Source: Telluria beijingensis (lineage in GTDB: Bacteria > Pseudomonadota > Gammaproteobacteria > Burkholderiales > Burkholderiaceae_D). From it: a stretch of 64,000 nt of DNA. Under the pieces are notes generated by a model. It worked only from the letters and a program-made list of their open reading frames with translations. It searched no databases and was not told where the DNA came from. Positions within the stretch are counted from its first letter, which is position 1, and each line of letters starts with the position of its first letter. Both the position numbers and the translations under genes were made by a program. Below are positions 58,014 through 61,487 of the stretch, piece after piece. The stretch is from the NCBI RefSeq assembly GCF_030770395.1, contig NZ_CP132480.1, forward strand, positions 2,542,854-2,606,853. Reading direction: 5' to 3'.

Positions 58014-59135
58014 TCAGACCTCGCCGCGGAATTTGCCCAGCGCGAGATTGACCATGGCCTCGACGCTGCCCTCGTGCTCGTGCACGATGCGCAGTTGCTC
58101 GGCGTCGCCGACTGCCTTCGTGATTTGCCCCAGATGGGCCAGCGCAGCGCCCGAGCCGAGCTTCTCGGCATGCGGCGCGATGCGCGCCAGGGTCGCCAGG
58201 ATGTCATCGCGCAACACCACGGGCCGGTGTTCCTGCGGCAAAACGATATTGCCCTCTAGCCCGAAACGGCAGGCCTGGAAGCGGTTGTAGTTGTAGACCA
58301 GGTAGTCGTCCTCGCGCGGTGGCGCTTCATTTCCCTCGAGCAGGTAGCTGCACAGGGCTTGCAGGTAGGCCGCCAGCGCCGCCGCATGCTCGACCGTGAG
58401 CGGGGTGTCGCAGACGCGCAGCTCGATGGTGCCGTACTCCGGCTTCGGGCGCAGGTCCCAATAGAAGTCCTTCATGCTGCGCACGATGCCGGTATCTTCC
58501 ATGCGCTTGAAGTAATCTCGCTCGAAGTCCTCCCAGCGCAGCAGGAACGGCGCCCGGCCCGACAGCGGGAAGGCGAACACCGAGTTCAGGCGCGAGGAAT
58601 GGAACTGGGTGTCGCTGCCCTGCAGGAAGGGCGACGAGGCCGACAGCGCAATGAAGTGCGGGATGTAGCGGTTCAGCGCATGCAGCAGGTACAGGGCATT
58701 GTCGCCGCTGCCGCAGCCGATGTGGACGTGCTGGCCGAACACGGTGAACTGCTTGGCCAGGTAGCCGTACAGGGCCGAGACTTCGCGAAAACGCGGCTTT
58801 TCATAGATGCGGCGCTCGGTCCATTGCTGGAACGGATGGGTGCCGCCGCCGCATACGCCCACGTTCAGGCGGTCGCCGGCCTTGAGCAGGGTGTCGCGGA
58901 TCAGCTGCAGTTCCTCGACCAGCGGGCCATGGCCGGTATGGATGCTGCTGTTAATCTCGATCATGCTCTCGGTGATCTCGGGCGTCACGGCGCCCGGGAA
59001 CGGCGCGCGCGCGAGCAGGTCGAGCATGTCAGGCGAGGCCGGGGCCAGGTCGAAGTCGGACAGGTTGACGAGCTGCAGTTCCAGCTCGACCCCCATCGTC
59101 AGTGCGTCCGAACGGCTGAATTCAGGCAGCGGCAT
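58014..59135 (-). CDS. ybdK: Glutamate-cysteine ligase-like carboxylate-amine ligase (YbdK)
   Basis: 373 residues of the GCS2 family. [11 protein letters not shown] (ATP/metal-binding), [17 protein letters not shown], and [16 protein letters not shown] followed by a C-terminal [13 protein letters not shown] match YbdK, which makes gamma-glutamylcysteine weakly or joins other carboxylates and amines. It is the second gene of the antiporter operon; its ATG lies inside the antiporter gene (14-nt overlap), so translation is coupled. Glutathione control of Kef-type antiporters makes the pairing suggestive. Confidence 0.9.
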
Positions 59136-60354
59136 CCTGGTCCTCCTTCTTCTCTACGGTCTTGTTCTTGGCAAAGCCCGATTCGCGGGCGCCGGTCAGC
59201 GCGATCTGGGTCAGGATCGGCGCCAGGACTTCCAGGATCATGGCCATCGCCGCCAGCGGCGCCAATGGGGTCAGGGTGTCGAACAGGTCGACGCCCGAGC
59301 GCCGGGTCTGTTCGATCAGGATGATGGCGAACACCGTCAGCGGCATGATCGCGACCCCGGTCAGGGCGCCCTTGCGCGCCGAGATGCCGGACACCCGGGC
59401 GGTCGCGGTGCACACGGCCACCTTGACCAGCGCGCGCACCAGCAGCAGGAGCAGGCCGAGCATCAGGCCCTCGGCGGTCGGCTGCCAGGCGATGGTGGTC
59501 GCGACAAAGAAGAACAGCAGCACGGTCAGCAAATCGCCCAGGGCGCCGAAATTGCGCTGGGCCGGGCTCAGGGTGACGCGGCGGTGGCGCGCCACCAGGC
59601 CGAAGGTCAGCGCCGCCAGCACCGGCGACAGTTTGAGCACGTGGGTGATCGCCACCAGCAGGAACACGAACACGGCGAACGTCAAGGTAGAGTTGCTGCG
59701 CGCATGGCCGGCGATGCGCTGCCACAGCGGCAGCAGATAGCCGAGCGCCGCGCCCAGGCCGCTGGAGGCGGCCAGCACCACCAGCCCGGTCCAGCTGGCG
59801 TGGACCACGTCGCCCGAGGTCTGGAACACGCCGAAGCCGACCGTGACGTTGAACACGAACACGGCCAGCACGCAGTTCAGGGCCGTCAGGTGCATGGCGC
59901 GCTCGGTCACCTGGCCCCCGCCGCCCTGCTCGTTGACGATGCGCAGCAGGCCGGCCGGCGAGCTGGCCATGGCCAGGGCCGCCAGCAGGCTGGCCGGCAG
60001 CGCGCCGATGCCGCAGGTGCGCGAGACGAAATAGACGGCGGCCCAGGTCAGGCCGGCTTCGAGCAGCGAGGTGACCAGGAGCCAGGGATTGGTGCGCAGC
60101 CAGCGCAGGTTGATGCGATAGCCGAGTTCGAACAGCATCAGGCCGAAGCCGAGATTGGCCAGCATCATGAAGTTGTCGGCCTGGGCCGGCGGCAGGTAGC
60201 CGCTGGAGAGGTTGCCGAACACGAAACCACACAAGCCATAGATGGCGATCCGCGGCACATTGGCCCAGCGGTACAGCAGTTCGCCAGCCATCCAGGCCAG
60301 CGTCAGCGCCAGCGGCCAGGCCAGCGCATGCGTGAGTGAAAGCAACTCGCTCAT
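59122..60354 (-). CDS. Cation:proton antiporter (CPA2/Kef-like), membrane domain only
   Basis: 410 residues, 11-13 membrane helices, with the CPA2 pattern ([65 protein letters not shown]). There is no C-terminal TrkA-N/RCK domain, unlike KefB/KefC, and the C-terminus is a short charged tail. It exchanges K+ or Na+ for protons at the inner membrane. It heads the operon with the YbdK-like gene. A candidate structured leader lies 117 bases upstream. Confidence 0.87.
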
Positions 60355-60471
60355 CCAAATTCTCCGATGGGACGCGCCGGACGGCGGCAGGGAGCCGCGC
60401 AGGCACGATAACCGATGCGGCGTGGGGAACGCCAGGCGCGGCAGGTGTGGAATTGCGATGCCGCGCAGTCG

Positions 60472-60498
60472 AAAAAAGCCCCCCGACGGATGCGGGGG
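60472..60498 (-). terminator. Intrinsic terminator upstream of the antiporter operon
   Basis: Minus-strand stem CCCCCG-CATCCGT-CGGGGG followed by GCTTTTTT, a textbook Rho-independent terminator. It points towards the antiporter gene and ends about 117 bases before its start codon. Confidence 0.75.
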
Positions 60499-60583
60499 AC
60501 GAAAAGAAACGGGGTGAGCCGCCTCATCGCTGATCGGGCAACCGGACGCAGCCGGTTGCCACTCGTCTATACTGCCCGAAAAG

Positions 60584-60589
60584 TATAAT
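60584..60589 (+). promoter_or_regulatory. Possible -10 element for the ZIP transporter gene
   Basis: A perfect TATAAT on the plus strand 143 bases ahead of the ZIP GTG start. No good -35 at 16-18 bases. It overlaps the antisense structured RNA, so it may be coincidental. Confidence 0.25.
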
Positions 60590-60731
60590 CGTGGCAACCC
60601 TATTTGTGCGAATGTACAGACAGGCGATAGCCATCCTTACCCGTCCGTCGAGGTGGGAATGAGGGGAATCGCCTGTCGTGCGCATGCTGCGCCTCAGAAA
60701 ATATTAGCATCGATGAAATAATGGAGGCACC

Positions 60732-61487
60732 GTGGACGCATTACCGGGATGGCTGCAGGCGGGAACATGGGGACTGGTGGCGGGCGCCGCCCTGCTGCTG
60801 GGCGCCTTCATCGGCATCCGTTTCGAGGTGCCGCAGCGCCTGGTAGCGGCCATCATGGCCTTCGGCAGCGGGGTCCTGATCTCGGCGCTGTCGTTCGAGC
60901 TGATGGACGAGGCGATCGAGACCGGCGGCTTCGCCTCGACCGCGGCCGGCTTCCTGGCCGGCGCCGTGGTGTACACCGCCGCGAACTGGATGCTGGCGCG
61001 GCGTGGCGCGCGCCACCGCAAGCGTTCGCGCCGGCCCGCCGGCGCCCAGGACGATGGCAATGCCAGCGCCATCGCCGTCGGTGCCCTCCTCGACGGCATT
61101 CCCGAATCGATCGTGATCGGCCTGTCGCTGCTCGGCGGCCAGGGGGTGAGCACGGCGGTGGTGGTCGCGGTGTTCCTGTCCAACCTGCCGGAAGGTTTGT
61201 CGAGCGCAGCCGGCATGAAGCAGGCGGGCCGCTCGCACGTCCACATCTACGGCGTGTGGGGCTGCATCGCCCTTGCGTCCGGGCTGGCGGCGCTGGCCGG
61301 CTACACGGTCTTCCACCACCTGCCGCCCGAGATGCTGGCGGCGACCACTGCCGTTGCGGCCGGCGGCGTGCTGGCGATGGTGGTCGACACCATGATTCCC
61401 GAAGCGTTCGAGGAAACCCATGATTTTGCCGGCCTGATCGTGGTGCTGGGTTTCCTGGCAGCCTTCGCGCTCAGCAAGCTGGGCTAA
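60732..61487 (+). CDS. ZIP-family metal transporter
   Basis: 251 residues, about eight membrane helices. Helix 4 has LLDGIPESIVIG and helix 5 has SNLPEGLSSAAG, the ZIP metal path; the usual His of helix 4 is replaced by Asp. A His/Arg-rich cytoplasmic loop (RRGARHRKRSRRP) joins helices 3 and 4. It imports Zn, Fe or a related divalent metal. GTG start at 60732 with GGAGG four bases upstream. Divergent from the antiporter operon. Confidence 0.88.
   Translation: MDALPGWLQAGTWGLVAGAALLLGAFIGIRFEVPQRLVAAIMAFGSGVLISALSFELMDEAIETGGFASTAAGFLAGAVVYTAANWMLARRGARHRKRSRRPAGAQDDGNASAIAVGALLDGIPESIVIGLSLLGGQGVSTAVVVAVFLSNLPEGLSSAAGMKQAGRSHVHIYGVWGCIALASGLAALAGYTVFHHLPPEMLAATTAVAAGGVLAMVVDTMIPEAFEETHDFAGLIVVLGFLAAFALSKLG

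Follow-up and report, generated by a model that had tools for sequence, protein, structure and literature searches.

The window referred to here is the whole stretch of DNA that was analysed, 64,000 nucleotides in length. Within it, an intergenic element on the minus strand is flanked by a gene for a Na+/H+ exchanger-type antiporter (PF00999; 59122..60354, minus strand; 82 bits in Pfam) and, on the other side, by a divergent gene for a ZIP-like transporter (60732..61487, plus strand; 21.1 bits against the Pfam Zip model, under its cut-off of 35.1). The antiporter gene is accompanied by one encoding a YbdK-type protein (GCS2, PF04107; 58014..59135, minus strand; 173.7 bits), and we regard these genes as neighbours of the element and not as parts of it. 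The first-pass annotation had described three segments at this position, A, B and C, in which B could pair with either of the others, and had offered two readings of them: an attenuator through which an ion or a metabolite would control the antiporter-ybdK operon, or a separate sRNA.

The pairings themselves are as described. Read along the minus strand, segment A (60599-60591, GGTTGCCAC) is perfectly complementary to B (60562-60554, GTGGCAACC) over 9 bp, and the same holds for B (60560-60552, GGCAACCGG) and C (60545-60537, CCGGTTGCC). A terminator scan confirmed the terminator, with its stem at 60500-60478 followed by TTTTTT, and the distance from the end of the T run (60472) to the antiporter ATG at 60354 is indeed 117 bases. 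The fold of this stretch beats chance, but only moderately, as judged from z-scores against shuffled sequences of -2.25 for 60604-60470 (135 nt; 6 of 200 shuffles equally good) and -2.45 for the predicted transcript, 60563-60472 (5 of 200 equally good).

A conserved promoter upstream of the RNA

Segment A falls within a conserved promoter and is unlikely to be transcribed. The putative -35 box, TTGCCA (60592..60597, minus strand), lies inside segment A and has five of the six letters of TTGACA; TTGC is found at this position in 60 of the 64 loci compared. The putative -10 box, CAGTAT (60569..60574, minus strand), follows 17 nt behind it, and a -10 hexamer with A in the second and T in the sixth position is present in 61 of 64 loci, L221 and L222 being among the misses. 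The spacer between the two boxes measures 17 nt in 44 loci, 18 nt in 19 and 19 nt in one. A second sequence group can be distinguished among the loci, in which the usual arrangement is a -10 box of GACAAT, CACAAT, AACAAT or TACAAT behind an 18-nt spacer. Alignment columns 1-59, which hold the upstream box described below and the -35 to -10 stretch, are free of gaps in 17 loci, while the length of hairpin 1 varies. A strict promoter scan, for which 8 of the 12 letters fit, reported no promoter at this place in the window; it did recognise the homologous site in L101 and L102, the two cases given to it.

Just upstream of the -35 box is a conserved box, TACATTCGCACAAAT (60602..60616, minus strand), which is a candidate site for a regulator on the grounds of its column information. 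Across the 64 loci this does not exceed 0.24 bits over the stretch 30 to 2 nt ahead of the TACATTnGnACAAAT box, and then reaches 0.52 one nucleotide before the box and 1.65 at its first base. Because the loci had been lined up on the box consensus, the values within the box are partly circular; those of the flank are not. Since segment A overlaps the -35 box (60597-60592), transcription most likely begins near 60562, where segment B lies. The position of the -10 box indicates the first base of B as the likely start, within 2 nt either way and about 7 nt behind the -10 box.

Two inverted repeats were seen in this region. One, TTGCC...GGCAA, runs through the promoter from -35 to -10 in some of the loci (for example L014 and L016; 60597-60569 in the window) and could be an operator; loci of the second sequence group do not conserve it. 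The other, ACAGGCGAT...ATCGCCTGT, lies upstream of the box in the window (60682-60618, minus strand) and, as judged by eye, is absent from L002 and L003. A sigma-54 promoter was also considered and was rejected by eye, its spacing being unfit and its motif not conserved.

Anatomy of the predicted RNA

The predicted sRNA is about 92 nt long (60472..60562, minus strand), with its 5' end placed from the -10 box and its 3' end from the terminator. Hairpin 1 (60537..60560, minus strand) is formed by B (60560-60552) and C (60545-60537). Changes on both sides occur among relatives in all 9 of its pairs, with only 77.6% of cells pairing in an alignment of 17 loci; by a stricter measure, at least six contiguous Watson-Crick pairs, the B-C helix is found in only 22 of 62 loci. 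The core, GATCAGCGATGAGG (60522..60535, minus strand), is a candidate seed, and its last four 3' bases double as the beginning of hairpin 2 in the window. In the fold of the predicted transcript it is unpaired up to GAGG. As RNA, GAUCAGCGAUGAGG, the core is exact in 39 of 58 loci of the genus, a count that rises to 49 when a single mismatch is allowed; among six loci outside the genus, GCGAUG is kept in all and GCGAUGAGG in four. Such conservation suits a seed.

Hairpin 2 (GAGGCGG/CCGTTTC; 60506..60525, minus strand) is paired in 100% of cells in the 17 loci, with changes on both sides in one of its seven pairs, and in the second sequence group a GATAC/GTATC pairing stands in its place. Hairpin 3 is the intrinsic terminator found by the terminator scan (60472..60500, minus strand; T run at 60477-60472). 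It is paired in 97.6% of cells in the 17-locus alignment, shows compensatory changes in three of eight pairs in the second group, and is followed by a T run of at least five in 60 of 62 loci scored. In L018 and L147 the loop of the terminator is enlarged by about 30 inserted nucleotides and the stem is kept.

Covariation separated the two alternative pairings. When B-C was scored together with hairpins 2 and 3, paired cells made up 90.2%, compared with 81.0% in shuffles, and covariation was 0.294 against 0.152, a value reached in none of 500 shuffles, although shuffle counts of this kind, here and below, do not equal probabilities for related sequences. For A-B the corresponding values were 66.0% and 65.3%, and 0.180 and 0.157, with 72 of 500 shuffles as high. 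A comparison of helix lengths gave the same picture; it was made on 62 of the 64 loci, two being dropped where the script did not recognise the core. Own B-C helices exceeded swapped ones (mean 5.02 against 4.12), whereas for A-B the own helices had no advantage in length over swapped ones (3.73 against 3.65), and a Watson-Crick A-B helix of at least 7 bp occurred in only five loci: the window, L120, L121 and L138 with 9 bp each, and L220 with 8 bp. A two-state attenuator would have both helices covarying; here B-C is supported and A-B is indistinguishable from shuffles and swaps. Of the covariation looked for in relatives, that of B-C, hairpin 2 and the terminator is present and that of A-B is not.

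In a separate alignment of 17 loci of the second group, 97.3% of cells were paired against 93.2% in shuffles, and covariation was 0.195 against 0.127 (0 of 500 shuffles). Changes on both sides were found in four of 20 pairs, three of these in the terminator; hairpin 2 of this group was supplied by us from the sequence, RNAalifold not having chosen it there. Further pair types showed no excess over shuffles in either alignment (58 of 500 in the 17-locus alignment, 431 of 500 in the second group), and RNAalifold run over both groups together retained the terminator only. Covariation in both sequence groups supports the conserved RNA structure expected of an intergenic sRNA.

Distribution among related genomes

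The genus of the window is taken in all counts as Massilia, represented by 62 genomes. A DNA search with 60720-60440 found matches in 18 of 61 genomes, all 18 in this genus, and the aligned part mostly ran from about 60617 to about 60470. A first covariance model, R1, was built on 17 of these 18 loci, L018 being left out for its terminator-loop insert, and matched 56 of the 62 genus genomes, one of which (G062) was judged doubtful by eye and dropped. The weak matches that we inspected mostly had the same promoter and core. Matches of R1 that were false or doubtful by eye, namely L114, L115, L116 and L118 from other genera and L108 from G062, were excluded from the counts over 64 loci.

A second model, R2, included the promoter and was trained on 24 sequences, of which only that of G096 came from genera outside Massilia. 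It found one copy per genome in 58 of the 62 Massilia genomes and no match in G006, G012, G030 and G062. Two of the 58 copies are degenerate (L217 and L151), and L224 (G070) is cut by a contig end. The promoter block is kept in both degenerate copies, the core being lost in L217 (G005) and the terminator in L151 (G008), as if these genes were decaying. Outside the genus, R2 matched five of the 17 genomes that represent genus g36 and a single g56 genome. The RNA appears to be restricted to one lineage, as far as the models reach, because R2 matches 59 of 392 genomes and three of 44 genera across the family, and a third model, R3, found its sole match among 150 genomes of the order in the window's own genome; the sequences used to train R3 came from the two other genera, so that its matches there are by construction. 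G108 gave a partial match in the distribution searches.

Variation of the neighbouring genes

Neighbours were mapped with eleven query proteins only, so other genes may lie between the RNA and the genes named here. The first mapped downstream gene is of the window's antiporter type in 23 of 64 loci. A three-gene operon comprising an uncharacterised predicted protein, another exchanger and a YbdK-like protein follows in 12, and a convergent MarR gene comes first in 24; the remainder have a CorC-like gene (two), YbdK alone (one) or no mapped gene (two). Gene matches starting within 20 nt were skipped, and L117 (CorC-like) and L151 (weak YbdK-like) were consequently counted under MarR. When the 58 genus loci are taken by themselves, an exchanger operon lies downstream in 35, a convergent MarR gene in 20 and something else in two (L148 and L151), and in one (L224) the contig ends, leaving 22 of 58 loci where no exchanger was mapped downstream. 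Both RNA sequence groups were found in both contexts, exchanger operon and MarR. On the upstream side the nearest mapped gene is a divergent ZIP-like gene, a same-strand metallophosphoesterase gene or a GNAT gene; neighbours on both sides vary while the RNA persists.

Pairs of an exchanger gene and a YbdK-type (GCS2) gene adjoin the RNA in two types of operon (that of the window, at 58014-60354, and the three-gene operon of 12 loci), and a possible tie of monovalent-ion exchange to a GCS2 enzyme could be worth following. In three loci of another genus (L117, L218 and L219) a similar exchanger operon is situated divergently upstream.

Relationship to known RNAs

No Rfam family reached its threshold in the window or in the loci of six relatives. 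The riboswitch classes that had been suggested for the element (nhaA-I, nhaA-II and DUF1646), and other riboswitches, gave no gathering match in the whole window and none up to E 10 in 60400-60760. Within this latter interval, five families appeared up to E 10, four of them bacterial sRNAs and all far under their cut-offs. The likeness to Betaproteobacteria_toxic_sRNA (RF02278) consists of a terminator hairpin with a T run, and the score of 17.4 bits, on the terminator part, compares with a cut-off of 50. The likeness to Burkholderia RNA 7, anti-hemB (RF02837), consists of hairpins followed by a terminator, and here 16.6 bits compare with a cut-off of 49.5. Neither score places the element in the family.

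According to a paper on Bordetella S17 (PMC11722255), this RNA is an Hfq-associated, trans-acting sRNA whose longer transcript is processed to a 67-nt form. The Massilia RNA resembles it in being intergenic, with its own promoter, an intrinsic terminator and a conserved region presumed to pair. S17, as described there, is longer and processed, and the two were compared only through the related Rfam family RF02278. The Li+ and Na+ riboswitches (nhaA-I, nhaA-II, DUF1646) control an adjoining gene, as stated in PMC9646797, and the RNA of the window is similar to them in lying ahead of a PF00999 exchanger gene. It differs in having no match to these classes among the Rfam hits up to E 10, an inconstant downstream gene and a presumed 5' half that appears to be promoter. 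Riboswitches are located in the 5' leader of the gene they control, and with 22 of 58 genus loci lacking a mapped exchanger downstream the Massilia RNA is not so located.

Among open-licence papers we found no study on Massilia sRNAs. The titles and opening lines of abstracts of open-licence papers on Oxalobacteraceae riboswitches, riboswitch classes, sRNAs and Hfq of related genera, and Burkholderiales sRNAs do not describe this RNA, and the word Massilia is absent from the retrieved text of a Herbaspirillum RNA paper (PMC6337395).

Discussion

We consider it likely that the element is an independent intergenic sRNA gene with its own promoter and terminator, most likely acting in trans. The comparison of relatives supports the hairpins, the conserved promoter and the independence from neighbouring genes; the start point, the binding of a factor, the involvement of Hfq and the pairing with targets are what we infer beyond this. 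RNA polymerase would start near 60562 from the conserved promoter, the output of which is probably set by a factor on the TACATTnGnACAAAT box, and transcription would end at the intrinsic terminator near 60472 to give an RNA of about 92 nt. This RNA would fold into three hairpins, leave the GAUCAGCGAUGAGG core exposed and be rich in U at its 3' end, and most likely the core, perhaps with Hfq, pairs with several mRNAs. An intrinsic terminator and a promoter of its own, both apparently independent of the neighbours, are what an intergenic sRNA gene should have. As a gene, a new sRNA family of ordinary kind is well supported by comparison. Massilia would gain by it an sRNA gene that is nearly universal in the genus and has defined ends, and whose candidate seed and operator box offer a basis for searches for targets and regulators.

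A search of 62 genomes for targets of the core gave 46 exact matches to the 13-nt complement, of which 40 fall within the RNA gene, and no conserved long complement. Of the six others, three were inspected: one, in G005, is located ahead of a dehydratase-like gene, and two are without a clear leader. A leader pattern had 37 matches in 10 genomes, most of them coding-looking by eye, with no conserved candidate. A leader match in the window's own genome was set aside as apparently antisense inside a sigma-factor-like frame, as read by eye. The core may instead work through a shorter seed or a protein partner. It is possible, although we think it rather improbable, that the RNA functions by binding a protein, with the core as the protein's site and not as a seed. 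A conserved core accompanied by three hairpins would fit this, as would the result of the search for long complements, but no known protein-binding family of Rfam was matched.

A mainly local function, with read-through or proximity coupling the sRNA gene to the exchanger operon where one is present and no ligand switch involved, seems to us equally improbable. Operons of two kinds with an exchanger and YbdK recur alongside the RNA, in 35 of 58 genus loci, and the divergent operons of L117, L218 and L219 also agree with such a coupling; against it, the RNA is retained in the 22 loci where no exchanger was mapped downstream. With the operon this frequent in the genus, some local functional link is possible.

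The attenuator favoured by the first-pass annotation, in which an RNA starting upstream of A would toggle between A-B and B-C and so control the terminator and the antiporter-ybdK operon, did not hold up, and we give it little credence. Both 9-bp pairings and the terminator are present in the window, A-B is likewise 9 bp in L120, L121 and L138, and one of the two kinds of exchanger operon is common downstream in the genus. But A overlaps the -35 box, A-B shows neither covariation above shuffles nor longer helices than swapped sequences, no riboswitch of Rfam matches, and 20 of the 22 loci without a mapped exchanger downstream have a convergent MarR gene next. As the RNA persists at loci without its supposed target, it is not primarily a leader of that target. 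The alternative of a separate sRNA, put second in that annotation, is the one supported by the covariation of the hairpins, the conserved promoter and the changing neighbours. The switch reading came about because the promoter box resembles one arm of hairpin 1, and the case illustrates how overlapping perfect pairings can arise from a chance resemblance of this sort.

The two readings might also be combined, and this too has a small chance of being correct. In this case the RNA would be a genus-wide sRNA whose terminator in some species is also a regulated valve for the antiporter-ybdK operon, a single stress- or ion-responsive promoter setting the level of the sRNA and, by read-through, that of the exchanger, and the A-B complementarity of the window's close relatives would reflect a switch acquired recently by an sRNA gene.

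Returning to the sRNA gene, a very short and perhaps leaderless coding gene in its place, reading from a GTG at 60562 to the TGA inside GCGATGAGG, is very improbable: by a rough script 16 of 39 scored loci are in frame, and in 13 of these the frame stays open as far as that TGA, but 23 of the 39 are out of frame, 25 of the 64 loci were unscored, and hairpin 1 covaries while its length changes.
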